NCBI RefSeq assembly: GCF_029892065.1
Contig: NZ_CP120374.1
Location: 186,001 to 250,000, forward strand
Length of the DNA: 64,000 nt
DNA from: Sinorhizobium garamanticum
GTDB taxonomy: Bacteria > Pseudomonadota > Alphaproteobacteria > Rhizobiales > Rhizobiaceae
Reading direction: 5' to 3'
Made by a program: the position numbers and the translations under genes. The number at the start of each line of letters is the position of its first letter. Within the stretch, counting starts at the first letter, position 1. The notes below the pieces were generated by a model. That model saw only the letters and a program-made list of their open reading frames with translations, was not told where the DNA came from and made no database searches. Below are positions 7,244-35,598 of this stretch, one piece after another.

Positions 7244-8734
<1,491 letters not shown>

Positions 8735-18809: not shown

Positions 18810-19295
18810 CTACAACTTGTACCCGATATTTCGTAAAAGATCTTTCCGCCACGCAATGTCGGCGTCGGTTTCGACACCCAGCGGTGAGGCGCCATCGACC
18901 ACGCCGAGCACGCCGCGGCCCAGTTCTGTTTGCGCGACGATCACCTGTGTCGGGTTGGCCGTCGCGCAGTAAATGCGGCAGACCTCCGGCACTGCACGCA
19001 CCGCGGCCAGCACGTTGACGGGAAAGAATCCGTCGCCCAGGAAGATCAGGAAAATGTGGCCGGCGCCAATGGCCAATGCGTTGTCGCGTGCGAGGGTAAG
19101 CGCGGCTTCGTCATTACCCGACCAGCGCACCAGCCGCTTACCGGAGGCCTCGCAGAAGGCCAGCCCGAAGCGAATGCCGGGAACGGTCCCCACCAGCGCC
19201 TCGTGGAGGTCTTCCACAGTCTTGATGAAATGCGACTGGCCAAAAATGAAGTTGGAGGCGTCCGGCTTGACGATGGGCACCACGGTAAGTTCCAT
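18810..19295 (-). CDS. Adenosine-specific kinase family protein
   Basis: The 161-residue protein matches the small family typified by the archaeal adenosine-specific kinase fold. Motifs are FGQSHFIKTVEDLHEALV, IRFGLAFCEASGKRLVRWSG, LAIGAGHIFLIFL, and VPEVCRIYCATANPTQVIVA then ELGRGVLGVVDG. The family is common in archaea and thermophiles and patchy in bacteria. Its activity in vivo is poorly defined, so kinase function here is only by family name. It starts at 19295 behind GAAGGAGC and is alone on the minus strand between pqqE and the YbaK-type gene. Confidence 0.85.
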   Translation of the reverse strand: MELTVVPIVKPDASNFIFGQSHFIKTVEDLHEALVGTVPGIRFGLAFCEASGKRLVRWSGNDEAALTLARDNALAIGAGHIFLIFLGDGFFPVNVLAAVRAVPEVCRIYCATANPTQVIVAQTELGRGVLGVVDGASPLGVETDADIAWRKDLLRNIGYKL

Positions 19296-19750
19296 GGCTG
19301 CGCTCCTTCAAGGTGGGCAACGCAATGGTAGGTAGGCCGACAGAAGGCGATTTCAAGCCGCCACAGGCGGACGATTCGCCTCCCGATGCTGCCACCCTCG
19401 GCTTCCTCGCGGAACGCCCGGTACAGCGGCAGGAGTGCCTCCTTCGGATCATTGGGCGGCGCCGCTCAACTGCCCGGCAGCACGATCAACTCGCCCACCA
19501 TCGACGGCTGGTGAGCCCCACACCGATAGCGCCGCCCTTGGCTGCCCGATCCGTGTGTTGGCGTCGGTCACACTAGCCTGCGCTCGGCGCGGTCACCGGC
19601 AATGCCATAGGGCCTCTGCGCTTCGAACCTTCGCCGCAAATTGAACAGTTAGAACGCGAGAGGCCGCGACGTGTTATATTAAATGGCTTCGCGTTGCGAG
19701 GTGCCGGCAGGGGCCTCACGATGGAAGGTCTCCGCCCGGAGGGTGGTATA
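19296..19750. other. Intergenic region, no confident gene
   Basis: These 455 bases separate the divergent adenosine-specific-kinase and YbaK-type genes. Short frames exist on both strands, but none has a ribosome site or a recognisable domain. A minus-strand stretch around 19370-19500 reads like a decayed coding segment, interrupted by a stop, but I cannot name it. A less GC-rich stretch near 19640-19685 may hold the promoter for the rightward genes. Confidence 0.4.
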
Positions 19751-20248
19751 GTGACCATTGCCTTGACACTCCAGACATATCTCGATCGCAAGGGCGTCGA
19801 GTATGATCTGGTCGAGCACAGGCCGACCAGATCATCGATGTCTACCGCCCGCGCCTGCCACATCGCGGCCCGCTGCCTGGCCAAAGGCGTCGTGCTGCGA
19901 AGACGCGATGGCTATCTTCTGGCGATCTTGCCGGCCTGCGGCAATGTGCGGCTGAGCAAACTCAAAGCAGCACTCGGCGAGGACCTGACGTTCGCCACGG
20001 AACATGAGCTCGATCAGTTGATCCCCGATTGCGCGCACGGCGCTGTTCCCCCAGTCGGCGACTGCTACGGGCTGGACGCCGTTATCGAGGACAGCGTCTG
20101 CGACCAACCGGAGGTTTACTTCGAGGGCGGCGATCACGCCACCCTCGTCCATATGAGCCAGGCACAGTTCGCGCGGCTCACGCGGGAGGCGCTTCATGAG
20201 AATTTCAGCGCTCGCAACCGGAGCTCCACGCGTTCGGCGATCGAGTGA
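19751..20248 (+). CDS. YbaK/ProX-type aminoacyl-tRNA deacylase domain protein
   Basis: The 165-residue protein is similar to free-standing editing domains that hydrolyse mischarged tRNA. It starts TLQTYLDRKGVEYDLVEHRP, then shows ARCLAKGVVLRRRDGYLLAILPA, where the Lys of the LAKGVVL motif is the usual catalytic residue. VYFEGGDHATLVHMS ends the domain. I choose GTG 19751 behind GGAGGGTGG; ATG 19721 is an alternative. It is followed within 80 nt by glutamine synthetase on the same strand. Substrate tRNA is unknown. Related proteins in stress islands are often annotated as deacetylases, without evidence I can cite. Confidence 0.75.
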   Translation: MTIALTLQTYLDRKGVEYDLVEHRPTRSSMSTARACHIAARCLAKGVVLRRRDGYLLAILPACGNVRLSKLKAALGEDLTFATEHELDQLIPDCAHGAVPPVGDCYGLDAVIEDSVCDQPEVYFEGGDHATLVHMSQAQFARLTREALHENFSARNRSSTRSAIE

Positions 20249-20328
20249 TAAGCGGCCGATCGACGGAAGAAGGCTGGCGGCGCAGCCGGCCTCGTTTCGA
20301 CGGACCGACATGAGGAAGGGAGGCGGCG

Positions 20329-21753
20329 ATGTCTGACAATGGCTACGCCAGCCCGGATGACGTTCTGCGGATGATAAAGGACGGCGAGATCGCGATGATC
20401 GATCTGCGGTTCACAGACCTTCCCGGCCTGTGGCAGCATTTCTCCGTGCCGCCGCGCGCCATCAGCGCGGACAGCTTCGCCAATGGCATCGGCTTCGACG
20501 GCTCGTCCATCCGGGGCTTCCAGGAAATACAGGAAAGCGACATGCTCGTCGTGCCGGATCCGACCACCGCTTTCCTGGACCCGTTCACGGAGGCGCCAAC
20601 GCTTGTCCTGATCTGCAATATTCTCGACCCAGCCAGCGGCCAACCCTATAGCCGGGACCCCCGCTTCATCGCACAAAAGGCCGAAACCTATCTCAAGGCG
20701 ACCGGTATTGGCGATACGGCCTATTTCGGCCCGGAACTCGAGCACTTCGTCTTCAACGGGGTCCATTACGATCAGGGTACCAACTACGGTTACTACGAGA
20801 TCGACGCCGTCGAGGCGAATTGGAAAGCGAGGGATGGAACGGGCCTCGGGCACAAGCTGCGCCCGAAAGAGGGCTACTTCCCCGTCCCGCCTTCCGATAC
20901 CCTTCAGGACGCACGCACCAGAATGGTAACGCTGCTCGAGCGCATTGGCATTGAGGTCGAGGCGCACCACCACGAAGTCGCGACTGGCGGCCAGGGCGAG
21001 ATCGACATGCGCTTTGCGACGCTGACGCGCATGGCCGACAGCGTGATGATCTACAAATTTGTCGTGAAGAATGTCGCGCGCAGCCGCGGCATGACCGCAA
21101 CCTTCATGCCGAAACCCCTGTTCGGGGACAATGGGTCGGGCATGCACGTCCATCAGAGCATCTGGCGGAAAGATCATCCGATCTTTGCCGGCGACGGTTA
21201 TGCCGGTTCCAGCGAAGCGATGCGCTACTATATCGGCGGACTGCTTAAGCACGCGCCGGCACTGCTCGCCATCTGCGCTCCAACCGTCAATTCCTACCGG
21301 CGGCTCGTGCCGGGTTTTGAAGCGCCGGTTAATCTCGGCTATTCGCGGCGCAACCGCTCCGCGGCGTGCCGGATCCCGATGTACTCATCCAACCCCAGGA
21401 GCAAGCGGGTAGAGTTCCGCTGCCCGGATCCCTCCTGCAATCCGTATATGGCCTTCGCCGCCATGCTCATGGCCGGCCTCGACGGTATCCGCAGCCGCAT
21501 CAATCCGGGGGAGCCGATCGACAAGAACCTCTACGACCTGCCCCCGATGGAACGCGCCGCAATCCCATCGACACCGGCCTCGCTCGCCGAGGCTCTCGAT
21601 GCGCTTGAGGCGGACTGCAAGTTCCTGCTTGCAGGAGACGTGTTCACGACGGACGTCCTCGAGACCTATGTGGACTACAAGCGCTCGCACGAGATCACCG
21701 AGATACGCATGCGCCCGCATCCATATGAGTTTGTTCTCTATTATGACGTCTAG
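20329..21753 (+). CDS. Glutamine synthetase, type I (accessory copy)
   Basis: The enzyme makes glutamine from glutamate, ammonia and ATP. The 474-residue sequence has GSI motifs: [12 protein letters not shown], the metal site [26 protein letters not shown], and [16 protein letters not shown] (ATP region NGSGMH). [16 protein letters not shown] and [12 protein letters not shown] follow. Tyr402 in [11 protein letters not shown] corresponds to the adenylylation tyrosine, so control by GlnE is possible. The start follows GGGAGGCGGCG. Rhizobia carry several glutamine synthetases. This one sits in an accessory island rather than beside glnB, so I do not give it the symbol glnA. Confidence 0.9.
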
Positions 21754-21762
21754 TGGGGGTGC

Positions 21763-21907
21763 ATGCTATGTTTCGAATACACGTGGATCCTGAAGGGAGC
21801 CGCAGTTCGCGAGCAAAATTGCGCCGCCTGCCATAGCCTGGATCACGTCGCGATGAATTCACCCTTACTGGACGAGAAGGGCTGGCGGGCCGAAGTCACC
21901 AAAAGGG
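21763..21907 (+). pseudogene. Cytochrome c remnant
   Basis: Just after the glutamine synthetase stop a short frame reads VREQNCAACHSLDHVAMNSP, then LLDEKGWRAEVTK. CAACH is a c-type haem-attachment motif in a context resembling small sulfite-dehydrogenase-type cytochromes c. No signal peptide precedes it and the frame runs into the archease gene without a Met ligand segment. I read it as the surviving core of a lost cytochrome gene. The archease ribosome site lies at its end. Confidence 0.6.
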
Positions 21908-21913
21908 ATGGCC

Positions 21914-22351
21914 ATGAGCGCGACGGGCACGATATCGGGATTTGGCTGGGAGCATTTCCATCATGACGCCGATATTGGGGTGCGCGGAAGAGGCCGATCC
22001 GTTGCGGAGGCCTTCGAACAGGCCGCAGTGGGCCTGACCCGGATCGTGACCTACAGTCCGATCGTCGTGAATATCCAGCTCGATGTGGAGTGCCGCCAAA
22101 GCGACCTGGAATTGCTCTTCGTGGATTGGCTCGACGCGATTATTTACGAGATGGCGACCCGCAAGATGCTTTTCGGATGCTTTACGGTCCGCACAGACGG
22201 ACGCATACTTAAGGGTACGCTTTGGGGCGAGCCCGTCGACGTGGCGCGGCACGCACCAGCTTGCGAACCGAAGGGTGCCACGCTCACGGCATTGAAGGTG
22301 ACGCGAGACGACAATGGCATCTGGTCCGCACAGTGCGTCATTGACGTATGA
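21914..22351 (+). CDS. Archease
   Basis: Archease is a small metal-binding protein that accelerates guanylylation of RtcB and lets the ligase turn over many times. The 145-residue sequence has HFHHDADIGVRGRGRSVAEA at the N-terminus with the conserved metal Asp and His, DLELLFVDWLDAIIYE in the middle, and the C-terminal KVTRDDNGIWSAQCVIDV ending in an acidic residue pair as in the family. ATG 21914 is 8 nt from AAAGGG; ATG 21908 is too close. It is 9 nt upstream of rtcB, forming the known archease-RtcB pair. Confidence 0.9.
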   Translation: MSATGTISGFGWEHFHHDADIGVRGRGRSVAEAFEQAAVGLTRIVTYSPIVVNIQLDVECRQSDLELLFVDWLDAIIYEMATRKMLFGCFTVRTDGRILKGTLWGEPVDVARHAPACEPKGATLTALKVTRDDNGIWSAQCVIDV

Positions 22352-22360
22352 GGCGCTTCG

Positions 22361-23791
22361 ATGGATCCGGCAAACTTCACCCAGATTGGTCCGGTTATGT
22401 GGCGCATCGAGCCGACGGGAGCGATGCGCGTGCCGGCGATCATCTTCGCGGACGAGGAACTCATCCGCGGAATGGACGACAGGGTCGCCCTGCAGGCCTG
22501 CAATGTTGCGACCCTGCCGGGGATCGTGTCTGCCTCCTTCGCGATGCCCGATGCGCATTGGGGCTATGGATTTCCGATTGGCGGTGTCGCCGCCTTCGAT
22601 CCGGAGAAGGGAGGCGTGGTCTCCGCCGGCGGCGTCGGCTTCGATATCTCCTGCGGTGTGCGGACGATGCTCACCAGCCTCTCGGTCAAGGATATTCTGC
22701 CGGTGCAAGAGGCCCTGGCCGAGTCTCTGTTCCGGCAAATCCCCGCCGGCGCCGGAAGCCGGGGGAAGATCACGCTCGATGATGCCGAGATGGAAGCGAT
22801 GCTGGTCGGTGGAGCGCGCTGGGCTGTCGAGCAGGGCTGGGGCGAAGAGCGCGACCTGGAACGCATCGAAGAGGGCGGCCGGATGGAAGACGCCAGGCCG
22901 CACTACGTCTCCGATCGCGCAAAGAATCGCCAGCGGCGGGAGATGGGCACATTGGGCTCCGGCAACCACTATCTCGAGGTGCAGGCGGTGGAGCAGATTT
23001 TCGATGAAGAGGCCGCCGCCGCATACGGCCTGCGCCCCGATGGCGTCGTTGTCACGATTCATTGCGGCTCGCGCGGACTCGGCCACCAGATCGGCAGCGA
23101 GTTCCTGAAGGAAATGGCAAGCACGGCGCCGGAGGCGGGAATCATCCTTCCGGACCGTGAGTTGGCCTGTGCGCCGATCAAATCGGAGCTCGGGGAGCGG
23201 TACCTTGGGGCGATGCGCGCGGGGATCAATTGCGCACTCGCGAATCGGGAGATCCTTGGTGATCTTAGCCGGCGGGTCTTTGGCCACCATTTTCCGGGGA
23301 CGCGTCTCGACCTTCTGTTCGACGTCTCGCACAACACTTGCAAGCCTGAGACCCACGAGGTCGACGGCAAGCGCCGCGAACTTTTCGTCCACCGCAAGGG
23401 CGCAACCCGCTCGCTCGGTGCCGGCAATCCCAGCCTTCCGCGAGCATTTCATGCCGTCGGTCAGCCGGTCCTCATCGGTGGCAGCATGGGCACCAGTTCC
23501 TATGTGCTGGCCGGCGAGCCGACGAGCGAGGAGAAGGCATTCTCGTCCGCGTGCCATGGAGCCGGCAGAGCCATGTCACGACACGCGGCGCTCAAACAAT
23601 GGAGCGGCCGGCAAATTGTCGACGAGCTTGCGGCGCGAGGAATCCTGGTTCGCAGCCCCTCCGACCGCGGTGTGGCAGAAGAAGCACCGGGCGCCTACAA
23701 GGATGTCGAGGCCGTGGTGCTAGCGGCCGAGCGGGCCGGCCTTGCGCGGCGCGTGGCGCGCATGCGGCCGCTCATATGCATCAAGGGCTGA
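22361..23791 (+). CDS. rtcB: RNA-splicing ligase RtcB
   Basis: RtcB joins RNA 2',3'-cyclic phosphate or 3'-phosphate ends to 5'-OH ends using GTP and Mn2+. The 476-residue protein is full length. Metal and catalytic motifs are present: AMPDAHWGYGFPIGGVAAF, GVGFDISCGVRT with metal Cys, GSGNHYLEVQ, TIHCGSRGLGHQIG, FDVSHNTCKPE, VHRKGATRS, GSMGTSSYVLAG and CHGAGRAMSR with the guanylylated His. Bacterial RtcB systems often have a divergent RtcR activator and RtcA cyclase; neither is here. Pairing with archease and a non-RtcR context suggest a different control or job, for instance tRNA or rRNA repair. Confidence 0.95.
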   Translation: MDPANFTQIGPVMWRIEPTGAMRVPAIIFADEELIRGMDDRVALQACNVATLPGIVSASFAMPDAHWGYGFPIGGVAAFDPEKGGVVSAGGVGFDISCGVRTMLTSLSVKDILPVQEALAESLFRQIPAGAGSRGKITLDDAEMEAMLVGGARWAVEQGWGEERDLERIEEGGRMEDARPHYVSDRAKNRQRREMGTLGSGNHYLEVQAVEQIFDEEAAAAYGLRPDGVVVTIHCGSRGLGHQIGSEFLKEMASTAPEAGIILPDRELACAPIKSELGERYLGAMRAGINCALANREILGDLSRRVFGHHFPGTRLDLLFDVSHNTCKPETHEVDGKRRELFVHRKGATRSLGAGNPSLPRAFHAVGQPVLIGGSMGTSSYVLAGEPTSEEKAFSSACHGAGRAMSRHAALKQWSGRQIVDELAARGILVRSPSDRGVAEEAPGAYKDVEAVVLAAERAGLARRVARMRPLICIKG

Positions 23792-24261
23792 TCTTCCTTT
23801 GAAGGGCGAATTTCGTCCGCAGACAGTGTGTGTCTTCGAGCTTCATGCGGCCAGCGCCGCTGTATTCAAAGTGTTCCATGTCAAAGGCAAAAGGCGCTTT
23901 CTCTCCTTCAATCCGGAAACCGACCCTCGACGAAACCGATGCCAGGATCCGGACGGCGCTCGCCAGCACGCTTTACAAGCATTGCGATGTTAACCCGGCA
24001 TCTAGCGGTGAAGGCTGGGCAGCCTTCGCGTGAAGCTCCGGTCAGTGACTGGACCCTATTCTCGGCTTTGACTTCATGCCACGCATTCCCGACCTCGTCG
24101 GGCGCTGCCTCTATCGGTTCGGGGTCGACGGATAGGTGCGCGAGACCGCGCGGGGCAAACGGGCGCCAACCTTTCGGCGCCAGCACACAGGTGCTATCCT
24201 TCCAATTTGGCTTGGGATCCACGGCTTCCTTAAGCCACAGAAATGACCTGGGAGGCAGCCT
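23792..24261. other. Intergenic region, no confident gene
   Basis: This 470-base gap between rtcB and the acetyl-CoA-synthetase-like gene has short frames on both strands (for example 23781-23969 on minus and 23830-24033 on plus), with no ribosome sites or recognised motifs. It may hold a promoter for the downstream gene. Decayed sequence is possible. Confidence 0.4.
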
Positions 24262-26292
24262 ATGTCACAGGAAAGAGCCGCAGACGTGTCCGAGGCCGAG
24301 ATCGCCGTCCACTGGCAGGAAGAGGATTACGTCAAACCATCGGAGAAATTCATTGCGCAGGCGAACCTGACCGACAGGACGGTCCTGGAACGGTTCAGCC
24401 TCGACAACTTCCCTGATTGCTTCAAGGAGCACGCCGATCTTCTCGACTGGTACAGACCTTGGGACACCACGCTTGACACGAGCAAACCGCCGTTCTGGCG
24501 ATGGTTTGTCGGCGGCAAGATCAACGCGAGTTACAACTGCATAGATCGCCACCTCGCCAAGCACAGGAACAAGACTGCAATCCACTTTGTCCCCGAAGCG
24601 GAGCAGGAAGCGATCCAGCACGTTACCTACCAGGAACTCTACGTGCGCGTGAACGAGGTCGCGGCGCTGTTGCGAGACTTCTGCGGGCTGAAACGGGGCG
24701 ATCGAGTGACGCTGCACATGCCGATGGTGGCCGAGCTTCCGATCACGATGCTTGCTTGCGCCAGGCTCGGCGTCATTCACTCGCAAGTGTTCAGCGGCTT
24801 TAGCGGCAAGGCGACGGCAGACCGCATTGTCGATGCCGAGAGCCAGGTGCTGATCACGATGGATGGCTACTACCGTGGCGGCCAGCTTCTCGATCACAAG
24901 CAAAAAGCGGATGTCGCTGTCAGGGAGGCGAAGAAGGAGGGCTTGTCGGTTGACAAGGTGCTGGTCTGGCAAAGGCACCCGGGCAAATATTCCAGTGCAA
25001 CGCCCTTGGTAAAGGGCCGAGATTTCATCATGAACGAGGTGTTGTCGGGTTACCGGCGCCGCACGATCGACCCGGTCGAGATGCCGGCCGAGGATCCGCT
25101 GTTCCTGATGTACACCAGCGGCACCACCGGGAAGCCGAAGGGCTGTCAGCACAGCACGGGCGGATATCTGTCCTATGTCGCGGGGACGTCGAAATACATT
25201 CAGGACATCCATCCGGAGGATGTCTACTGGTGCATGGCCGATATCGGCTGGATCACCGGTCATTCCTATATCGTCTACGGCCCGCTGGCGCTCGCTGCCT
25301 CCTCGGTCGTGTTCGAGGGCCTTCCCACCTATCCCGATGCCGGACGTCCCTGGCGCATTGCGGAAGAACTTGGGGTTAACATCTTTCACACTTCGCCGAC
25401 GGCGATACGGGCGCTGCGGCGTGCAGGCCCCGACGAGCCGCGGAAATACGATCACCATTTCAAGCATATGACGACTGTCGGCGAGCCCATCGAGCCGGCG
25501 GTTTGGCGGTGGTACTACGACGTCGTGGGCAAGGGCGAGGCGGTCATCGTCGACACCTGGTGGCAAACGGAGAACGGCGGCTTCCTGTGTAGCACCATTC
25601 CTGCGCTTCACCCGATGAAGCCGGGAAGCGCAGGGCCCGGCCTACCGGGCATTCATCCGATCATCTATGACGAAGTTGGCAACGAGATTCCACCGCGCTC
25701 CGGCCGTGCGGGAAACATCTGCATCCAGAACCCCTGGCCGGGCGGTTTTCAGACGATCTGGCGGGACCCGGATCGCTTCGTCGAACAATACTATGCGCGT
25801 TACTGCAAGGACCGGGGGAGCCATGACTGGCGCGACTGGCCGTATATGGCTGGCGACGGCGCGTTGCAGGCGGCCGACGGCTACTATCGCATCCTCGGCC
25901 GCATAGACGACGTCATCAATGTGGCTGGGCATCGGCTCGGGACCAAGGAAATCGAGTCCGCCAGTCTGCTGATTGAGGAGGTCGCCGAGGCTGCGGTCGT
26001 CCCCGCCAGAGACGAGATCAAGGGCACGGTGCCCGACCTCTATGTCTCGCTGAAGCCCGGCCTCGCCGCGAGCGGGGCCATTCGCAAGCGCGTGGAGGAT
26101 TCCGTGATCCGTGAGATCGGGCCGATTGCTCGGCCGCGCCGTGTCGTGATCGTCCCCGACATGCCGAAGACCCGCTCCGGCAAGATCATGCGGCGCGTGC
26201 TCAGGGCGATCTCGAACGATGAGGATGCCGGCGACATCTCGACGCTCGCCAATCCCGAGGTCGTTGACGAGATTCGAAAGATAAAGGTCTAG
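24262..26292 (+). CDS. Acetyl-CoA synthetase-like AMP-forming acyl-CoA ligase
   Basis: The enzyme activates a short carboxylate (acetate or similar) through an adenylate to its CoA thioester. The 676-residue protein has the Acs N-terminal cap (PPFWRWFVGGKINASYNCIDR), the ATP loop YTSGTTGKPKGCQHS, DIGWITGHSYIVYGPL, TWWQTENGGF, and RIDDVINVAGHRLGTKEIES. C-terminal MPKTRSGKIMRRVLR carries the catalytic Lys usually controlled by acetylation. It is longer than many Acs at the N-terminus and differs enough from housekeeping Acs that the substrate is open (acetate or propionate). The start follows CTGGGAGG. Confidence 0.85.
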   Translation: MSQERAADVSEAEIAVHWQEEDYVKPSEKFIAQANLTDRTVLERFSLDNFPDCFKEHADLLDWYRPWDTTLDTSKPPFWRWFVGGKINASYNCIDRHLAKHRNKTAIHFVPEAEQEAIQHVTYQELYVRVNEVAALLRDFCGLKRGDRVTLHMPMVAELPITMLACARLGVIHSQVFSGFSGKATADRIVDAESQVLITMDGYYRGGQLLDHKQKADVAVREAKKEGLSVDKVLVWQRHPGKYSSATPLVKGRDFIMNEVLSGYRRRTIDPVEMPAEDPLFLMYTSGTTGKPKGCQHSTGGYLSYVAGTSKYIQDIHPEDVYWCMADIGWITGHSYIVYGPLALAASSVVFEGLPTYPDAGRPWRIAEELGVNIFHTSPTAIRALRRAGPDEPRKYDHHFKHMTTVGEPIEPAVWRWYYDVVGKGEAVIVDTWWQTENGGFLCSTIPALHPMKPGSAGPGLPGIHPIIYDEVGNEIPPRSGRAGNICIQNPWPGGFQTIWRDPDRFVEQYYARYCKDRGSHDWRDWPYMAGDGALQAADGYYRILGRIDDVINVAGHRLGTKEIESASLLIEEVAEAAVVPARDEIKGTVPDLYVSLKPGLAASGAIRKRVEDSVIREIGPIARPRRVVIVPDMPKTRSGKIMRRVLRAISNDEDAGDISTLANPEVVDEIRKIKV

Positions 26293-26389
26293 CCACGAAG
26301 CCATGGAATGGCGTTCGGGGAGGAGTCCCACGCCGGAGTGATCAGGCTTTTTGCTGATACCGGGCTGATGAGGTGAGGAGTCCAACAAA

Positions 26390-26614
26390 ATGGTCGAGCG
26401 TATTCGATCATTGCTGGCGAGGTTCCCCGAGGATGAAGAGATCGTCCGCCGGCTGGCCGCGACGGACGCGCGCTTCAATGCGCTTTGTGACGAGTACCGC
26501 AAGATTGTCGATCTCCTCGATACCTGCGAGGCGCAGGTGGCACGGCTCAGGGAGCACAGGGCTTTGCTGGAGGATGAGCTGCTCACGCGCATTGAGGGAC
26601 ATCAGCCGCTGTAA
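26390..26614 (+). CDS. Small YdcH/DUF465-like helical protein
   Basis: The 74-residue protein begins at ATG 26390 behind TGAGGAG. It carries RRLAATDARFNALCDEYRKI followed by a long charged helix (ARLREHRALLEDELLTRIEG), the pattern of the YdcH/SlyX-like small coiled-coil family. No enzyme motif is present. Its place about 100 nt after the acyl-CoA ligase suggests the same transcript. Function unknown. Confidence 0.6.
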   Translation: MVERIRSLLARFPEDEEIVRRLAATDARFNALCDEYRKIVDLLDTCEAQVARLREHRALLEDELLTRIEGHQPL

Positions 26615-26936
26615 CGCCAAGCAAGTGCGACGCAGCAGCCGGGTTGGTCCTTCTTGCGTTGACACACCTGATACCGGGATCCGGTCAGCAAACAGCCGAG
26701 ACGCCTCCCGAACCGACACCTGCGCCGCCGGCCCCTCAAGCGACGAACCCGCGCCTTCTACGCCAGCGCCTGACGATGCAGCAGGGCTTGGCTGCCGAGC
26801 GGTTGACAGAGGCATGCAGATCGGCGTGAGATGGCTTGAGAACTGTGGCTCCGCGGCGATCCACGACCCCGAGATTTCATCAGGAAAGAGATCCGGTTGG
26901 TTCGGGCGGAGCTCTTCACATTCTGCGGAGCAGTAT
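26615..26936 (+). other. Spacer before the MBL-fold gene
   Basis: These 322 bases hold one short proline-rich frame (26644-26829, TTG start, no ribosome site), which I do not call. There are TTGACA hexamers near 26658 and 26802, which could be -35 elements for the downstream gene, but good -10 partners were not clear. Much of the stretch reads like degraded coding sequence. Confidence 0.35.
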
Positions 26937-27941
26937 GTGGTATTGCTTGTTCAACCCAGGTTGGTCAATGAGCCTTTCGGCGATGCAGGCCTCCTGCTTG
27001 ATTTCAGTTTCGGGTCGCGCGCCATACTTTTCGATCTTGGCGACCTGGCTCCGCTTCCGGCTGGTACAATTTCCAGGATCCGCCAGGCATTCGTGTCACA
27101 CCTGCACATGGATCACTTTGCGGGCTTTGACAGGATACTCCGTCTGCTCCTTAACCGGACGGCAGAGCTGCAGATATTCGGCTCTCCCGGTCTAACAGAT
27201 GCCGTTGAGGCAAAGCTGCGAGCCTACACGTGGAATCTTCTGAATGAGACGTCCGAGGACTTCTCGATTATCGCCGCAGAGTGGAATCTCAAAGACGAGG
27301 TGACGCAGTCGCGGTTCAAGGCACGCAATAGATTCGGTCGCGAGCCACTCGGGGTGGTGACGCTGACGTCCCAACGTCTCTTGGTGGAGCCCGACTTCTA
27401 CGTCGAGGCGGTCGAGCTCGATCATGGGATCCCATGTTTGGCATTCGCGTTTCAGGAGAACATAAAGGTAAACGTGCACAAGGCGCGGTTGAATGAGCTT
27501 GGTCTCCCGACCGGGCCTTGGCTGACCGAGGCCAAACAGCTCGTGCGGTCTCACGCGGATCCGGGCGCAATCGTCAAAATTCCGGGGCACGGCGACATGA
27601 AACTTGGTGATCTTCTTAGTGCCAAGGCACTCGTCACCGGTCCCGGAGAGCGTATCTGCTACGCAACGGACCTGGCATTCACTGACGCGAACCTGTCGCG
27701 CTTGCTCGCCTTAGCGGAAGGGTCGGACTACCTCTTCATCGAGGGCGGCTTCCTTGATGAGGACAAGGCCATCGCAGCGTCCAAGAGGCATCTGACGGCA
27801 TCTCAGGCGGGAAGGATCGCCGCAGCCGCACGCGTTTCAAGATGCGTTCCCATGCATTTCTCCCCCCGCTATCTCGGTCGAGAGCAATTGTTGTTGGATG
27901 AGTTTCAGAGGGGACTCACTACAGGACTCACCACCCTCTGA
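26937..27941 (+). CDS. RNase Z-like metallo-beta-lactamase-fold protein
   Basis: The 334-residue protein starts at GTG 26937 behind GCGGAG. It opens with VQPRLVNEPFGDAGLLLDF and LFDLGDL, then the zinc motif HLHMDHFAGFD (His55, His57, Asp59, His60). Further metal-site segments are CYATDLAFTDAN and CVPMHFSPRYLG. It resembles the RNase Z/ElaC branch, which trims tRNA 3' ends, but is annotated variably as ribonuclease Z or MBL-fold hydrolase. Presence beside RtcB, archease and a tRNA-deacylase-like protein makes an RNA substrate plausible, though this is inference. The same frame extends upstream to 26373 without support. Confidence 0.8.
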   Translation: MVLLVQPRLVNEPFGDAGLLLDFSFGSRAILFDLGDLAPLPAGTISRIRQAFVSHLHMDHFAGFDRILRLLLNRTAELQIFGSPGLTDAVEAKLRAYTWNLLNETSEDFSIIAAEWNLKDEVTQSRFKARNRFGREPLGVVTLTSQRLLVEPDFYVEAVELDHGIPCLAFAFQENIKVNVHKARLNELGLPTGPWLTEAKQLVRSHADPGAIVKIPGHGDMKLGDLLSAKALVTGPGERICYATDLAFTDANLSRLLALAEGSDYLFIEGGFLDEDKAIAASKRHLTASQAGRIAAAARVSRCVPMHFSPRYLGREQLLLDEFQRGLTTGLTTL

Positions 27942-28108
27942 CTAGCAATCACTCTTCGGCTACTGCGCCTGCGGGGTGCCATGTCCGCCATGCTATCTTC
28001 GGGAAACGAATACGAACAGCAATCGCAGGCGCCGTTCCGATCAACCCAGAAATTCGCTGCAGTCGTTCCTCCGCCGACGGGCGGCGTTCAGCCGTTTTCG
28101 CTGGCTGG

Positions 28109-29248
28109 TCAAGCCGGCGCCGTTGGCGCGATGCGCACCGGCCGGCGATAGGCGCCCCAGTCACCCGGCTGCGGCTCGAACACGCCCGGGCAAGGCGTGC
28201 CGCAGCGGTGGCAGCGGCCCTTGGCGTCGAGAGCCCAGGACAGCAAGTGGTACCAGTCGCGGGCGATGAGGCATGCGCCGCAGGCATGGCACCAGGTGCT
28301 GCCGCCGACGTCATCGTGCACGTTACCGCAGTAGACGTAACGCAGCCCGTTTTGGAGGCCGATCCGGCGCGCCCGTGTCAGCGTCTCGGGCGCGGTGGGC
28401 GGCTTGTCCATCATCTTCCAGTCGGGATGGAAGGCCGTAAAGTGAAGCGGCACATCCGGGCCAAGTTCTTCCATGATCCATTGCGTCAGCGCGTCAATCT
28501 CCGCCTCGGAATCGTTTTCACCGGGAATGATCAGCGTCGTGATCTCGAACCATATCGAGGTCTCGCGCTTGAGATAAACAAGCGTTTCGAGCACCGGCGA
28601 AAGATGGCCGCTGCAGACGCGCTGGTAAAAGCGCTCGGTGAAAGCCTTGAGATCAACATTGGCCGCATCCATGTGGCGGTAGAATTCGCTGCGTGGTTCT
28701 GAGCAGACATAGCCGGCCGTGACCGCGACGCTTTTGATCCCCCGCTCGCGGCAGGCATCGGCGACGTCGATGGCGTATTCATGGAAAATGACGGGGTCGT
28801 TGTAGGTGAAGGCAACGCTGCGGCAGCTGAGATCCGCCGCAGTACGGGCGATCACCGCGGGGGACGCCGCGTCGGCAAGCGTGTCGATCGCGCGAGACTT
28901 GCTGATGTCCCAATTCTGGCAGAACCGGCAGGCAAGATTGCAGCCGGCCGTGCCGAACGACAGGACGGCGGTGCCCGGCAGAAAATGGTTGAGCGGCTTC
29001 TTCTCGATCGGATCCACGCAGAAGCCGCTGGAGCGGCCGTAGGTCGTCAGCACCATCCGGTCGTCCCGGCGAGCGCGGACAAAGCAGAGCCCCCGTTGCC
29101 CCTCATGCAACTTGCAAAATCGCGGACAGAGGTCGCACTGGACGCGCCCGTCGGCGAGCGCGTGCCAATAGCGGCCTGGCACAATGGAGGCGTCCCCCGG
29201 CTGCAATTCCGGGCGGATAGCGGTTGTGGCGTTGGGGATCGAGAACAT
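28109..29248 (-). CDS. amrS: AmmeMemoRadiSam system radical SAM enzyme
   Basis: The 379-residue protein has the 4Fe-4S motif CNLACRFC (Cys103, Cys107, Cys110) within FGTAGCNLACRFCQNWDIS, GYVCSEPRSEFYRH, and a C-terminal zinc-ribbon-like part (CHACGACLIARD, CHRCGTPC). N-terminal CDLCPRFC is also typical. Family members occur with AMMECR1 and Memo domain proteins, forming a conserved module of unknown reaction related to pyruvate-formate-lyase activases. Neither partner is within this window. No signal peptide, so cytoplasmic. It faces the MBL-fold gene convergently. Confidence 0.85.
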   Translation of the reverse strand: MFSIPNATTAIRPELQPGDASIVPGRYWHALADGRVQCDLCPRFCKLHEGQRGLCFVRARRDDRMVLTTYGRSSGFCVDPIEKKPLNHFLPGTAVLSFGTAGCNLACRFCQNWDISKSRAIDTLADAASPAVIARTAADLSCRSVAFTYNDPVIFHEYAIDVADACRERGIKSVAVTAGYVCSEPRSEFYRHMDAANVDLKAFTERFYQRVCSGHLSPVLETLVYLKRETSIWFEITTLIIPGENDSEAEIDALTQWIMEELGPDVPLHFTAFHPDWKMMDKPPTAPETLTRARRIGLQNGLRYVYCGNVHDDVGGSTWCHACGACLIARDWYHLLSWALDAKGRCHRCGTPCPGVFEPQPGDWGAYRRPVRIAPTAPA

Positions 29249-29387
29249 GCTCGCATGATAGACCTGTCACGGCATCGTTCAATGGGTTGTGCCCGCTCCC
29301 GCAGGAGCACCTGATCGCCGCGGGTGCGGAAGAAGCGCTCGCCGGCTCCTGGGGAAGGAGACGAAAGCGAGCGCTTTGGCCGCATCT

Positions 29388-29867
29388 CTACTCTTTCACG
29401 ATTGCTGTGACAGTTTCGATCACCTGCGACGCCATGGCGAACTCGCGGTCCCGACTCGAAATTCGATGGCGCTTTGCGATCCAGTCGAAGTCTGTGTAGG
29501 CCGCGTAGACGGATCCGTCCTTCGCCTGATAAACGAGGACCCGGACTGGCCAGTCGAGTCCCGCGAGTGGATTGGCGGTGATGAAAGTCGTGCCGAGCGC
29601 CGGATTGCCGAACATCACCAGGCGCGACGGACGCACTTCGTTGCCGGCGGCGTTGCCGAGCTTGGCCTGGTCGATGACGCCGAAGAGGGTGATGCCCTTT
29701 TCCTCGACGCTGGCCTTGATGCGGTGCACCGTCTCGCTGACCGAATAGCGGCTCTTGACCGTGACGATGCCGTCGCTGTCTGCGGCCTCTGCCATCGAAA
29801 CTTGAGCCAATGCCGTGGTTGCGGTGATCAAGGCGGCCGACAGCATTGCATTGCTGATCTTCATCAT
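29388..29867 (-). CDS. DUF302-domain secreted protein
   Basis: The 159-residue protein starts at the double ATG 29867/29864 behind AGAGGAGC. It has a signal peptide (AMLSAALITATTALAQV). The mature domain shows TVKSRYSVSETVHRIKASVE, GITLFGVIDQAKLGNAAG and LVMFGNPALGT then RVLVYQAKDGSVYAAYTD, the DUF302 fold. It probably resides in the periplasm. Function unknown; such proteins recur in stress islands and near redox genes. It follows the MFS gene by 37 nt on the same strand. Confidence 0.85.
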   Translation of the reverse strand: MMKISNAMLSAALITATTALAQVSMAEAADSDGIVTVKSRYSVSETVHRIKASVEEKGITLFGVIDQAKLGNAAGNEVRPSRLVMFGNPALGTTFITANPLAGLDWPVRVLVYQAKDGSVYAAYTDFDWIAKRHRISSRDREFAMASQVIETVTAIVKE

Positions 29868-29904
29868 TTCAGAGCTCCTCTCTCTAGCCCTCAAATGGGC
29901 TCAT

Positions 29905-31164
29905 TCAAGGATGCGGCTGCCGGCTGCGATTTGATAATGCCGTCTCTTGTCCATTTCGATAACTGGACCTCATGGCGCGCAGCGGTACGGCAAAGAGCAT
30001 GGCGAGCACAAGCATGGCGACGAGCACCAGGACTGAAGTGTTCCATCCGAAACGATCGTAGATCTGGCCCACCACCAGGCTGCCGAAGAGCCCACCCGTA
30101 TAATAGGAGGCGAGATAGGCGCCGCTTGCTGCCGCCTTCTCCGTGTCGGCGATGCGGCCGACCTGACTGGTCGCCAGCGCTTGCGCGAGAAAGGTGCCGA
30201 CGGCGACCATGGCGAGGCCCGCAAGCACCACGACGAGGCTGCTGCTCATGAGGGTGATGAGGCCAAGCGCGGCGCAAAGGAGTGTGAGCACAATGCCGGC
30301 TCCGGCGCCGAGACGACGGGAGATGAGTCCGCCTAGCGGCGTCGTGAACAGCGATGGCAGGAAAACGAAATAGACGAGGCCGAGCTGCATCTGTGAAAGC
30401 CCGAGCTCCACTAGCCGGAAGTTGACATAGGTGTAAGTGCCTATGAAAACGAAGAGGATCAGGAAGCCGATGGCGAGCAGCCCCAGCAGGCGCCGACTGC
30501 CGAGTACCGAACGCCAGCTTCCGTTGCTTCGCATTTGCCGGTCCGGCATCATGTGCTCGGTCCGCTTCAATGTGGTCCAGACGAGGGCCGCTCCCGCTAG
30601 GTTGAGAAGCGCGAAGGTCTGGAAGTTGGTGGACAATCCGCCGAGGTCGGCAACTGCCGCCGACAGAATTCGGCCAAAGAGGTTGCTGGCGACGTTGCCG
30701 GTGACATAGGCCGCAAGTGCGCCCGTTGCCCGCTCAGCCGGGAGATGCTCCGCCAGATAGGCCATAGTGAGGGTGAACGCGGTCGCCATGCACAGGCCCT
30801 GCGCCACGCGCAGGCCAGTGAAGATCGCGATGTCCCGCGTTGTCGAGAGCAACACGGTCGGCACGGCAAGCAGTGCGAGACTGATCCAGATGCCGTTCCG
30901 CCGATCCAGATTGCGCCCAAAAATGCCGACGGCGAGGCCGGCGACCGCCATGCCGAAGGTGCTGGCATTGACGGCGAAGCCCATGGCTGCGCGGCTAACT
31001 CCGAATTCTCGTTGCAGCGACGGCAGGATCGCCTGGGCGGCGAAGAGGTCGACCAGGGTCAGGAATGCAATGAGTGCAATGATGCCGAAATGCCAGCGGT
31101 CGGCTGCGGGGCTTGCCAGAACGGACAGGGACGCCGGCAGCGAGGTACGATCGAGGTTCGCCAT
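29905..31164 (-). CDS. MFS transporter
   Basis: The 419-residue protein has about 12 predicted membrane spans and the MFS inter-helix loop GIFGRNLDRRNGIW between helices 2 and 3. The layout is like drug/arabinose-efflux (YnfM-type) carriers, with LRVAQGLCMATAFTLTMAYL in the first half. Substrate cannot be inferred. The start has an excellent ribosome site, AAGGAGG. A perfect 12-bp hairpin lies 20 nt upstream of the start, between it and the cupin gene. Confidence 0.85.
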   Translation of the reverse strand: MANLDRTSLPASLSVLASPAADRWHFGIIALIAFLTLVDLFAAQAILPSLQREFGVSRAAMGFAVNASTFGMAVAGLAVGIFGRNLDRRNGIWISLALLAVPTVLLSTTRDIAIFTGLRVAQGLCMATAFTLTMAYLAEHLPAERATGALAAYVTGNVASNLFGRILSAAVADLGGLSTNFQTFALLNLAGAALVWTTLKRTEHMMPDRQMRSNGSWRSVLGSRRLLGLLAIGFLILFVFIGTYTYVNFRLVELGLSQMQLGLVYFVFLPSLFTTPLGGLISRRLGAGAGIVLTLLCAALGLITLMSSSLVVVLAGLAMVAVGTFLAQALATSQVGRIADTEKAAASGAYLASYYTGGLFGSLVVGQIYDRFGWNTSVLVLVAMLVLAMLFAVPLRAMRSSYRNGQETALSNRSRQPHP

Positions 31165-31183
31165 CGCTTATCCTCCTTAAAAT

Positions 31184-31218
31184 GCGGACGTTTCCCGCCA
31201 GTGGCCGGAAACGTCCGC
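31184..31218 (-). promoter_or_regulatory. Perfect 12-bp-stem hairpin between cupin and MFS genes
   Basis: The arms GCGGACGTTTCC and GGAAACGTCCGC flank an 11-base loop. On the minus strand it is followed by ATTTTAAGGAGG, so a weak U-run and the MFS ribosome site come right after. It may be an attenuating or processing hairpin, or an operator. A true terminator would need a longer U-tract. Confidence 0.6.
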
Positions 31219-31245
31219 GATGTTGCGGTGCTACAGCGCTGTGGC

Positions 31246-31740
31246 TCACATGGCGTGGTCGTCATCCTGCATCGGCGGCAAGATATCGGCCGAGTAGAGC
31301 ACGGCCGGCTTTGAGCCGTTGTTCTTCCACCAATGGGCAAGCTCGCCGAATTCGGCGGTCACTTCGCCCGCCTTGTGCTCGATCGGAACCTTGCAGCTGC
31401 TGCGATATTCGGTGATCGTGCCTTCCACGACCAGAATGTTGGCGGGACGCGCCTCGTGCGAATGCCACGGCACGACGCCGCCCGGCTGGACGATCAGCTT
31501 GCGCAGCCGCAGCGCATTCCCTTCCCACGCGCTTCCCTTCGAGGAAAGATCGATCGACGCGAGGACTTCATCGGTCACGCCTTCGGGCGCCGTGGCGCCG
31601 GGCGCCATGGCATTTGCTGCGATCTGGTCCTTGGGGCATTCTCCGGCCATAGCCGATGGCGCGGCGAGTGCGCTTGCGAAGAGTCCGAGCGCCGCAGCGG
31701 CGGCCAACGACAGACGGCCTGCGATGGATTTCTGAATCAT
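31246..31740 (-). CDS. Secreted cupin-domain protein
   Basis: The 164-residue protein has a signal peptide ending around SAMAG and a single cupin domain: GGVVPWHSHEARPANILVVEGTI and, later, GEVTAEFGELAHWWKN, giving His ligands for a metal. Two cysteines (GECPKD, SSCKVP) may pair. The C-terminus is rich in Asp/His (QDDDHAM). The start at 31740 follows AAGGAGAACCGGAC. It may be co-expressed with the MFS gene 82 nt downstream. Substrate unknown. Confidence 0.82.
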   Translation of the reverse strand: MIQKSIAGRLSLAAAAALGLFASALAAPSAMAGECPKDQIAANAMAPGATAPEGVTDEVLASIDLSSKGSAWEGNALRLRKLIVQPGGVVPWHSHEARPANILVVEGTITEYRSSCKVPIEHKAGEVTAEFGELAHWWKNNGSKPAVLYSADILPPMQDDDHAM

Positions 31741-31852
31741 GTCCGGTTCTCCTTGGTCGGTCCGGCCGGAGATATTCCGGCGGCACAAGGAGATTGCGGG
31801 ACATTCGGCCGACAAAGAAATGCCGCCTGCTTTTGAATTCCATAGCTCAGAG

Positions 31853-32788
31853 CTATTGCGGAAGGGGAGGGGTGTCGGCGGCCGATCGGCGCATGTCTAT
31901 GCCAGAATGTGGTGCCGCCCAGCCGTAGGATTTGACCGCTCCAACGAAGGTGGCGACAGCCGGCGAGAACCGCCGGCCTGCGACAGTCACGAGGCAAACC
32001 TCCCGCGTGACCTCCGGTTCGACCACAGGCCGCACCTGCAAACCTGGAATGACGGCGCTGTATTCGGGAATGAAGCAGATGCCGAGCCCGCCGGCCACCA
32101 TGTTTTGTATCCAGTCCTCCCGCTCGCTCGAGTAGGAGATCTGAGTCTTCACACCAGAGGACTCGCACAACTCCGTCAGATAATCCCAATATTCGCAGTT
32201 CACACGTCTAAGATAGATCTCGCCATCGATGGCGGTAATGGGAACCGCATCGTATTGACAAAGACGATGACCCGGAGGAAAGGCGAGCATGAACCTTTCA
32301 CGAAACAGCGGCGTCACGTCGAAGCGTTCGGGGAAACGGTCGCTGCTCGCCATGATGGCGACATCTATCTCCCCTTCCTCAAGCAGTTCTGAAAGCTTGG
32401 ACGGCACACCTTCGACGAGCTGAAGCTGAACGCCGCGGTGACGCATGTTGAAGTCGGTCAGGAGGCCGGTAAACCGACGCGGCCCGATCGTGCACATGAT
32501 GCCGACCTTCACATGCGCGTCTTCCAGACAGAGAAAGCGTGACGCTTCCTGCCTGACGCCCGAGAGTTCGTCGAGAATCGACTGAAACCGCGGTCTCAGC
32601 AGGTTTCCGAGATCCGTGATGTGGGTCAGGTTCCGTTCCCGCCGAAACAGGAGCCCGCCCACTTCATCCTCGAGTTGCTGGACGGCACGGCTTAATGCCG
32701 GCTGGGTCACGTGGCACTTTTCGGCGGCACGCGTGAAATTTCGCGTCTCGCAAACGGCCAGGAAATACCGAACGTGGTGAATGTCCAT
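31853..32788 (-). CDS. LysR-family transcriptional regulator
   Basis: The 311-residue regulator has an HTH at the N-terminus (HHVRYFLAVCETRNFTRAAE, VTQPALSRAVQQLEDEVGG) and an effector domain with VKVGIMCTIGPRRFTGLL. It resembles CynR/HcaR-like or OxyR-side members by eye, without assignable ligand. I start at ATG 32788 behind GGGGGA. It is divergent from bdhA over a 175-nt spacer with a palindrome, so it probably controls bdhA-patatin and itself. The cupin gene lies downstream on the same strand. Confidence 0.85.
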   Translation of the reverse strand: MDIHHVRYFLAVCETRNFTRAAEKCHVTQPALSRAVQQLEDEVGGLLFRRERNLTHITDLGNLLRPRFQSILDELSGVRQEASRFLCLEDAHVKVGIMCTIGPRRFTGLLTDFNMRHRGVQLQLVEGVPSKLSELLEEGEIDVAIMASSDRFPERFDVTPLFRERFMLAFPPGHRLCQYDAVPITAIDGEIYLRRVNCEYWDYLTELCESSGVKTQISYSSEREDWIQNMVAGGLGICFIPEYSAVIPGLQVRPVVEPEVTREVCLVTVAGRRFSPAVATFVGAVKSYGWAAPHSGIDMRRSAADTPPLPQ

Positions 32789-32886
32789 ACCGTCCCCCGC
32801 AGGGTTTTCGTGTCCAGGCGGCCACTCTCCAATGCAGGCGCCGCTTTCACCAATGCAATTCACCTATCGAATTCATAGCACAGTGG

Positions 32887-32902
32887 CATTTCAGTTGAAA
32901 TG
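32887..32902. promoter_or_regulatory. Palindromic operator candidate between LysR gene and bdhA
   Basis: CATTTCAGTTGAAATG is a 7-2-7 perfect palindrome in the divergent intergenic region, 61 nt before the bdhA start. Flanking ATTCAT and GAAT extend partial symmetry. It could be the LysR binding site. Confidence 0.5.
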
Positions 32903-32963
32903 AATACAGCGCCATTCTCGTCCCACCAGAGGCCCTTCGGCCCAAACGTGAGGAGACGCGGAC

Positions 32964-33794
32964 ATGTTCAAAAGTAGCGACGCTGAAATCGGCGCGATGT
33001 TCGGGCGCAAGGCGCTCGAGGGGCGCAGCGCCATCGTCACCGGTTCCACCAGCGGCATTGGTCTCGGCATCGCCCAGGCGCTGGCCAAGGCGGGCGCGGC
33101 AGTGATGCTCAACGGCTTTGGCGAACCGGCCGAAATCGAACGGCAGCGGGCCGAGATGGCGGAGGAGAACGACGTCGACGTCGCCTACGACAGCGCCGAC
33201 ATGTCGAACCCGCGTGCGATCCAGATGATGGTCGAGCGCGCCGGCGCCCGCTTCGGACAGATCGACATCGTCGTCAACAATGCCGGTATCCAGCACGTCG
33301 CTCCTATCGCCGAATTCCCTGCGGCCAAGTGGGACGCGATCCTTGGGATCAATCTTTCTGCTGCGTTTCACCTCGTCCAGGCGACCTACGATCAGATGCG
33401 GGCACGCGGCTATGGGCGCATCATCAATGTCGCCTCGGCGCATGGTCTCGTCGCCTCGCCCTACAAGTCCGCTTACGTGGCCGCCAAGCATGGGCTCGTC
33501 GGGCTCACCAAGGTAGTGGCTCTCGAAGGCGCGGAATTCGGCATCACGGCCAATGCGATTTGCCCGGGCTATGTCTGGACTCCTCTCGTCGAGCAGCAGA
33601 TCGACGATCAGGCAAAATCCCACGGCATCGCGCGCGATGCGGTCATCCGCGACGTGTTCCTGAAGAACCAGCCGACCAAGCGCTTTGCGACTGTCGAGGA
33701 GATGGGCGCGTTGAGTGTCTTTCTGTGCAGCACCGCCGCCGCCTCGATAACCGGCGCGGCAATCCCTGTCGATGGCGGATGGACGGCCCACTGA
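32964..33794 (+). CDS. bdhA: D-3-hydroxybutyrate dehydrogenase
   Basis: It oxidises D-3-hydroxybutyrate, from poly-hydroxybutyrate breakdown, to acetoacetate with NAD. The 276-residue SDR shows the cofactor motif TGSTSGIGLGIAQ, NNAGIQHVAPI, the catalytic Ser with SPYKSAYVAAKHGL (Tyr and Lys), and the family C-terminus ITGAAIPVDGGWTAH. Segment ANAICPGYVWTPLVE is typical of bacterial BdhA. An N-terminal extension of about 16 residues precedes the usual start. ATG 32964 follows GAGGAGACGCGGAC. It is followed 26 nt later by a patatin-like gene. Confidence 0.9.
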   Translation: MFKSSDAEIGAMFGRKALEGRSAIVTGSTSGIGLGIAQALAKAGAAVMLNGFGEPAEIERQRAEMAEENDVDVAYDSADMSNPRAIQMMVERAGARFGQIDIVVNNAGIQHVAPIAEFPAAKWDAILGINLSAAFHLVQATYDQMRARGYGRIINVASAHGLVASPYKSAYVAAKHGLVGLTKVVALEGAEFGITANAICPGYVWTPLVEQQIDDQAKSHGIARDAVIRDVFLKNQPTKRFATVEEMGALSVFLCSTAAASITGAAIPVDGGWTAH

Positions 33795-33820
33795 CCGCCG
33801 CAGCGAAGAGGAGGAGAGCC

Positions 33821-34903: not shown

Positions 34904-35005
34904 AGCGGGATGAGGAAAAGTGTGAAGCGGTTTTCCGCCCGCATCCCGCTCTAACTTATTAGAATCGATCCCGTTTATGATTTTGGGTCGATTCGACCCA
35001 AAATC
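34901..35005. repeat. Dispersed palindromic repeats after the patatin gene
   Basis: The hairpin 34901-34954 has arms TAGAGCGGGATG and CATCCCGCTCTA, the same family as 15417-15458. A second near-perfect hairpin, 34979-35005, reads GATTTTGGGTCGA and TCGACCCAAAATC. Its AAAATCA... tail also occurs near 15386. The pair overlaps the stop codon of the patatin gene and could protect or stabilise its 3' end. Confidence 0.75.
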
Positions 35006-35103
35006 ATCGTGATCTAGGGCGTTCGACGCTTCCCGACCAATCAGGCGCGTCGCCACGGAGTGCGCGCATGCCCTCGCTGCCATCCCCTCCCAATGGCAGT
35101 CCT

Positions 35104-35147
35104 GCCCCCCGATACGGCCCGATCGGCCCGATCCGGGGGGCTTTTTT
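35104..35147 (+). terminator. Rho-independent terminator
   Basis: A GC-rich stem with arms GCCCCCCGAT and ATCCGGGGGGC, containing an inner CGGCCCGATCGGCCCG, is followed by CTTTTTTCGT. It lies 200 nt past the patatin stop and 147 nt before bufA. It may end the bdhA-patatin transcript or an untranslated RNA or leader of the bufferin operon. Confidence 0.75.
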
Positions 35148-35293
35148 CGTCTCAGGTGCACCCGTCGCCGGCGGATAGTTCGGCCTATCGAAACCATGCC
35201 TGAACAGCATTTCAAACAGCGCGAGCGGTCTGCGAAGCTTCTTACATCAGGCCGATGTCCGGTCTGAACAACGTCAGATCCAGGAGATGTTCA

Positions 35294-35563: not shown

Positions 35564-35598
35564 CGGCCTCTCGATAACCAAGCAAAGGGAGTAGACCG

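Follow-up and report, generated by a model that had tools for sequence, protein, structure and literature searches.

The region described here lies in a window of 64,000 nucleotides from Sinorhizobium garamanticum, corresponding to positions 186001–250000 of contig NZ_CP120374.1 (1,992,739 bases), and all coordinates below are window positions. Between 18810 and 29867 this window carries an 11-kb island in which a gene for archease directly precedes one for the RNA ligase RtcB, and the subject of this analysis is that pair and its relation to the genes around it. Gene calls and family matches recovered, at the same positions, each of the genes that a preliminary description of this DNA had named, together with a short open reading frame (ORF), orf74, that had been left out of it. 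The cytochrome c and sulfite dehydrogenase scar listed below is likewise absent from that description. The features of the island are as follows:

18810–19295, minus strand: Adenosine_kin family protein (PF04008, 240 bits).
19751–20248, plus strand: protein with an aminoacyl-tRNA editing domain (deacylase) of the YbaK-like superfamily (PF04073).
20329–21753, plus strand: type I glutamine synthetase GlnA (GS).
21755–21907, plus strand: deletion scar made of fused remnants of a sulfite dehydrogenase region, with the CAACH haem motif of a cytochrome; the region is intact in S. terangae.
21908–22351, plus strand: archease, the RtcB activator (PF01951, 112 bits, 3.5e-32; P. horikoshii archease 4n2p, 1e-18).
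22361–23791, plus strand: RtcB, an archaeal-type 3'-5' RNA ligase (PF01139, 548 bits).
24262–26292, plus strand: acetyl-CoA synthetase AcsA (acs), by family match.
26390–26614, plus strand: orf74, an ORF of 74 amino acids with no match in Pfam.
26937–27941, plus strand: RNase Z-like metallo-beta-lactamase (MBL) of 334 amino acids, PRK02126 subfamily.
28109–29248, minus strand: AmrS, a radical SAM protein of the AmmeMemoRadiSam family (TIGR04337, 653 bits; cut-off 220), convergent with the MBL gene.
29388–29867, minus strand: DUF302 protein (PF03625), belonging to a separate block (29331–36000).

Only 9 bp separate the archease gene from that of RtcB, so that a PF01951 gene directly adjoins a PF01139 gene. 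The GS gene starts 80 bp past that of the deacylase, and the other same-strand gaps amount to 154 bp (GS–archease), 470 bp (RtcB–acs), 97 bp (acs–orf74), 322 bp (orf74–MBL) and, on the minus strand, 139 bp (AmrS–DUF302); operon-like spacing is confined to archease and RtcB, besides perhaps deacylase and GS. RtcB aligned near its full length with P. horikoshii RtcB (1uc2, E 9.5e-150), and the active-site residues D64, D95, C98, N202, H203, E206, H234, H324, H399 and K475 are kept, including the metal-binding residues and the guanylylated histidine, with Phe204 of P. horikoshii replaced by Tyr204 (residue roles, namely metal binding, guanylylated or essential, as given in PMC3973293 and PMC10630183). 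Both genes are intact, with ratios of nonsynonymous to synonymous divergence (dN/dS) of 0.10–0.19. In the whole genome (6.83 Mb in 3 contigs, 98.8% complete) there was a single match to RtcB and none to RtcA (PF01137) or RtcR (PF06956), in a search where the E. coli control was positive for both. The reading of this pair as adjoining RNA-repair genes without RtcA or RtcR, proposed in the preliminary description, was thereby borne out by families, alignments to solved proteins and conserved residues.

The same description had taken the whole 11 kb for one tRNA repair or quality-control module, and had proposed a gene-neighbourhood search as a check. Named genomes were scanned with four aligned rhizobial RtcBs as the query, which yielded at least 582 relatives. 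The best 80 loci were used; as all query RtcBs adjoin archease, this sample is biased to linked cases. Of these 80 loci, 72 have archease, and in 69 the archease gene lies upstream of RtcB and ends no more than 600 nt from it; two of the eight loci without archease had RtcB at a contig end. The other genes of the island were mostly absent from the 79 best RtcB loci outside the genus: Adenosine_kin, GS, orf74 and DUF302 were found in none, the MBL in one, AmrS in two, the deacylase in three and an Acs-like protein in four (one with 76% identity, the others with 23–34%). Other families recurred beside archease–RtcB, namely CBS, S30AE with a cold-shock domain, PolX, Prs, CapA, Hsp20, PRTase, DLH and NAPRTase, each in 5–11 of 86 loci, and none of them is among the Pfam matches of the island. 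The family joining S30AE (ribosome hibernation) to a cold-shock domain, as checked for one member, occurs no more than 9 kb from RtcB in loci L028, L033, L036, L042, L048, L054, L067 and L079, at only 19 nt in L033; genes for PolX, Prs, CapA, CBS and Hsp20 recur near RtcB about as often.

Within Sinorhizobium, the island genes proved to come and go in blocks. In S. terangae, those that are kept occupy four separate places on a single replicon, pCB3126_1 (2,093,508 bases): about 317 kb for the MBL, 707–714 kb for the DUF302 block (window 29331–36000), about 1.40–1.41 Mb for acs, which comes straight after pqq, and 1.72 Mb for AmrS, deacylase, GS, sorA, sorB and a fragment of archease. The S. 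terangae genome gave no RtcB match. The DUF302 block is also placed elsewhere in NGR234 and GR4, Adenosine_kin was found beside AmrS in S. chiapasense and beside toxin–antitoxin genes in E. adhaerens, the order GS–archease–RtcB–acs–orf74 is that of relative G414, and in Ensifer sp. IC3342 acs adjoins RtcB and is then followed by orf74. The scar at 21755–21907 keeps two short segments whose S. terangae counterparts are separated by about 1.35 kb, a distance that takes in an intact gene for sulfite dehydrogenase and the first part of its cytochrome gene; therefore, this pair, which we take to be sorA/sorB-like, was deleted in the lineage of the window. The pattern is reciprocal, as S. terangae keeps the sulfite dehydrogenase pair, with only a fragment of archease and no RtcB match, whereas the window has RtcB and has lost the pair.

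Synonymous divergence (dS) also differed between blocks. Compared to relative G413, dS reached 0.79 in RtcB and 0.58 in archease, as opposed to 0.185 in both MBL and AmrS, and compared to G414 it was 0.19 for GS, 0.22 for acs, 0.34 for RtcB and 0.44 for archease; such unequal values for one and the same relative mean that the blocks have different histories. All genes measured (DUF302 excluded) are under purifying selection (dN/dS 0.05–0.27). The island is a mosaic of blocks and not one conserved module, and the rarity of its neighbours at outside loci, the turnover of blocks in the genus and the block-specific dS together tell against the single module of the preliminary description. What lies here is a patchwork instead of a new repair machine, and it shows how fast accessory blocks are reshuffled in Sinorhizobium. 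Near matches to window positions 14000–36000 were found in 119 plasmid records, 86 of them from Sinorhizobium and 9 from Ensifer.

Archease is scarce in the family, being present in 6 of 394 Rhizobiaceae genomes even when fragments are counted. Among 33 Sinorhizobium genomes, RtcB matches were found in 7: those of four genomes are of the archaeal type (87–100% identity; one of these genomes has an additional weak partial match) and those of three have 31–33% identity. In a tree of 96 rows, built by a quick method with one short row dropped and a split RtcB omitted, the RtcB of the window fell in a clade of nine rows that comprises rhizobia, Pseudorhodoplanes and a single member of the Halomonadaceae (Billgrantia), with a support of 96 in the Shimodaira–Hasegawa-like approximate likelihood ratio test (SH-aLRT), far from Thermomicrobium and from a long-branched Halobaculum row. 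This placement inside a mostly alphaproteobacterial clade suggests that the pair was likely transferred among Pseudomonadota, and a direct transfer from archaea or thermophiles is not supported by the sequences; the preliminary description had suspected transfer because several families are more usual in those groups.

The explanation that we consider highly probable is that an ordinary two-gene archease–RtcB operon is the working unit, that it is horizontally mobile and sits in a shuffled accessory region, and that the other genes of the island are independent neighbours. According to what is known of the family, RtcB would take GTP and Mn2+, become guanylylated at H399 (the equivalent of His404), activate an RNA end with a 3'-phosphate or 2',3'-cyclic phosphate and join it to a 5'-OH end, and archease would accelerate the guanylylation and permit multiple turnovers of the ligase. 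With RtcA, RtcR and a second RtcB missing, the most likely role, judged by the same family knowledge, would be the resealing of tRNAs or rRNAs after their cleavage by ribotoxins or during stress. The host bacterium is not known to have protein-spliced tRNA introns, which makes repair rather than splicing the likely job. As an accessory trait moving among Pseudomonadota, the pair would have settled in a reshuffled part of a large replicon of Sinorhizobium, where the deacylase, GS, Acs, AmrS, DUF302 and Adenosine_kin proteins would be independent of it.

Several observations weigh against so strict an independence of the neighbours. Relative G413 has archease, RtcB and MBL together with a convergent AmrS, and G412 shows the same order with only a fragment of the MBL; thus, a sub-block of three to four genes (archease–RtcB, MBL, AmrS) recurs inside the genus. 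In other genera, AmrS was found directly upstream of archease in one locus (L071) and no more than 0.8 kb upstream in another, with a PRTase gene in between (L030), and a relative of the deacylase (32%) was found directly upstream of archease in a third (L084). Finally, archease and MBL co-occur, both being present in 6 of 398 Pseudomonadota. These AmrS and deacylase recurrences, and the co-occurrence of archease with the MBL, would be compatible with a looser functional guild.

The MBL scored 357 bits against the NCBIfam model PRK02126 'ribonuclease Z' (cut-off 315) but 110 bits against the RNase Z equivalog TIGR02651 (cut-off 293); it is the best match of the genome to the latter model, whose cut-off no protein there reaches. 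In an alignment of 26 sequences the motifs HxHxDH and HLT were invariant, as was H-x-S in an HFSxRY-like segment. The AlphaFold2 model (mean predicted local distance difference test score, pLDDT, of 92) had as its top Foldseek match the RNase Z–tRNA complex 2fk6 (E 1.4e-18), so that an RNase Z-like fold with zinc-binding motifs is predicted. By sequence and predicted fold the MBL is therefore a relative of RNase Z, as the preliminary description had it. In-frame TGA signals in relatives of the MBL and of AmrS had raised selenocysteine as a candidate, which was rejected: the MBL relatives L107, L108 and L111 show no stop within the region that aligns with the MBL of the window, and of seven AmrS relatives five have none in the aligned part and two have one near the C-terminal end, ordinary stop codons being the likely source of the signals. 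MBL loci have no constant neighbour, the commonest being a CapA-like gene (by resemblance to a Pfam-checked protein of L010) in 4 of 26 clustered loci. Several Sinorhizobium genomes share a resident syntenic MBL locus with no archease–RtcB nearby (L207, L208, L209, L210 and L212); in G414 the copy at that locus is in pieces and another copy elsewhere is intact.

The best surviving alternative is that the MBL, perhaps with AmrS, forms a mostly unlinked partnership with archease–RtcB, in which the nuclease would trim or cut damaged tRNA and the ligase would reseal it, the window being a rare neighbouring case. In 398 evenly sampled Pseudomonadota, with the MBL counted when full-length and above 260 bits, archease was present in 9 genomes, the MBL in 11 (7 above the curated cut-off) and both in 6 (Fisher p 7e-9), that is, the MBL was found in 6 of 9 archease genomes versus 5 of 389 archease-free ones, usually unlinked. 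The overlap persisted without the genome of the window (p 1.7e-7) and when families rather than genomes were counted, by their labels (p 8e-5, or 5e-4 once the family of the window is left out). It shrank under the strict family cut-off, to 3 genomes (archease 9, MBL 7; p 2.7e-4), or to 2 without the window genome (8 and 6; p 0.005). In named genomes, 50 of the 79 with an RtcB locus outside the genus were examined, some of them incomplete, and the MBL was found in 15 (11 above cut-off); archease is present at the RtcB locus in all of the 50 but one (L043), which is itself MBL-bearing. The presence of the MBL in 14 of 49 archease-locus genomes contrasts with 5 of 389 in the archease-free part of the phylum sample (p 6e-11), but samples are small and the two sets differ in composition. 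AmrS, present in 101 of the 398 genomes and in 6 of the 9 with archease (p 0.01), was found in 5 of the 6 with both archease and MBL versus 96 of the 392 others.

Part of this association is explained by lifestyle. RuBisCO was used as a single control gene in 77 of the 398 genomes, a set that includes every MBL-only genome by design. Its association with archease was weak (5 of 9 vs. 18 of 68, p 0.08), but the MBL itself was associated with RuBisCO (7 of 11 vs. 16 of 66, p 0.014), and the archease–MBL link was weaker within RuBisCO-positive (p 0.017) and RuBisCO-negative (p 0.024) genomes of this set; lifestyle thus accounts for a share of the link.

Physical linkage speaks in both directions. 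The MBL is linked to archease–RtcB in the window, in G413, in G412 (as a fragment) and in a metagenome-assembled genome of Methylothermaceae (L034), but archease–RtcB was not near any of 24 MBL loci from other genera. In Sinorhizobium, all 4 genomes with an archaeal-type RtcB have the MBL, which, fragments counted, is present in 11 of 33 (p 0.008), but 7 of those 11 lack such an RtcB. On a 304-kb plasmid of Methylocella tundrae (L216, L219), archease lies among insertion sequence (IS) elements together with an RtcB match confined to the first 137 residues, and an RNase Z-like MBL lies about 190 kb from the archease.

The fold match to RNase Z in complex with tRNA favours a partnership, but cleavage by RNase Z enzymes generates 3'-OH ends, and RtcB does not join these, so that any partnership of MBL and RtcB would be indirect, for example if the MBL trimmed ends unfit for resealing. 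The archease–MBL association is thus offered as a lead, not as a finding, and it seems doubtful that trimming and resealing are shared in this way; that the PRK02126 MBL is an unrecognised functional partner of archease–RtcB in Pseudomonadota, conserved by co-occurrence and rarely by neighbourhood, is similarly improbable. If it were true, there would be a cut-or-trim-and-reseal pathway of RNA repair working without RtcA and RtcR, and the MBL is in any case a testable candidate partner for bacterial archease-type RtcB, whose natural substrates remain poorly known. A search of the available literature found no paper joining archease with Rhizobium or with ribonuclease Z. Of the RNA module first proposed, archease–RtcB as an RNA-repair pair is supported, and so is the MBL as an RNase Z relative, by sequence, by predicted fold and by its co-occurrence with archease across Pseudomonadota; the 11 kb as one unit is not.

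It could also be argued that archease–RtcB is here a decaying passenger with no present role, as S. terangae retains an archease fragment with no RtcB match and another member of the Rhizobiaceae (G322) has a split RtcB plus a second archease fragment; the intact genes of the window, their conserved catalytic residues and their low dN/dS make this quite unlikely. That the whole 11 kb was gained as a unit from archaea or thermophiles, as an island for tRNA repair and metabolic recovery, is barely credible: several of its genes do belong to RNA- or tRNA-related families, but relatives show blocks with differing dS, its neighbours are mostly missing from unrelated archease–RtcB loci, and RtcB is closest in the tree to alphaproteobacteria, with 50% identity to Thermomicrobium and 44.5% to Halobaculum.

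Regarding the remaining genes, the deacylase fits the description 'YbaK-type' only in part, as it carries the PF04073 editing domain of the YbaK-like superfamily but scores 29.9 bits against the YbaK/EbsC equivalog TIGR00011 (cut-off 153). Its Lys45 aligned with a Lys of solved relatives, presumably the catalytic one. Scans of the window with Rfam and for tRNA gave no matches, and the island has no excess of promoter-like (1 vs. 2.9 expected from shuffles) or terminator-like sites (7 vs. 8.0). FixK/Fnr-like boxes (TTGAT-N4-ATCAA, up to 2 mismatches) number 27 in the window against 14.6 expected, a count reached in none of 100 shuffles; a FixK/Fnr-like regulon for the island was dropped, as its four boxes each have 2 mismatches.

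Immediately ahead of the island, the pqqBCDE genes stop at 18711, and upstream of them a RuBisCO large subunit gene (7244–8704, domain 7313–8236) belongs to an operon-like row of minus-strand ORFs. Consecutive genes for DUF2282, MbnB/TglH/ChrH, DUF2063 and DoxX proteins occupy 35294–37887, a row that we take to resemble a bufferin-type operon for a metal-binding ribosomally synthesized and post-translationally modified peptide (RiPP). Further downstream, a CrtC/lipocalin-like ORF (48297–48905) encodes 202 amino acids, compared to 357 called for its S. terangae relative; a truncation of the window copy or a wrongly called start may account for the difference.

Compared with known systems, the MBL resembles RNase Z (tRNase Z) in its MBL fold, in the HxHxDH, HLT and H-x-S motifs and in its best structural match, but belongs to the separate subfamily PRK02126, with 17–22% identity over the fold to its best RNase Z Foldseek matches and a score below the equivalog cut-off. 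With the RtcR–RtcBA operon of E. coli and Salmonella, as presented in PMC7790460, the pair would share the ligase chemistry and a role in RNA repair; it does not belong to that type, since the window genome has no detected RtcA cyclase or RtcR regulator, has archease instead, and carries an RtcB of another subfamily (29–30% identity to the RtcB of E. coli records). The closest likeness is to the archease–RtcB operon of the P. horikoshii type, already known from PMC3973293, in that archease lies directly upstream of an archaeal-type RtcB whose checked catalytic residues are kept; it differs in that the host is a bacterium and the pair sits in a mosaic region of a large, non-chromosome-like contig.

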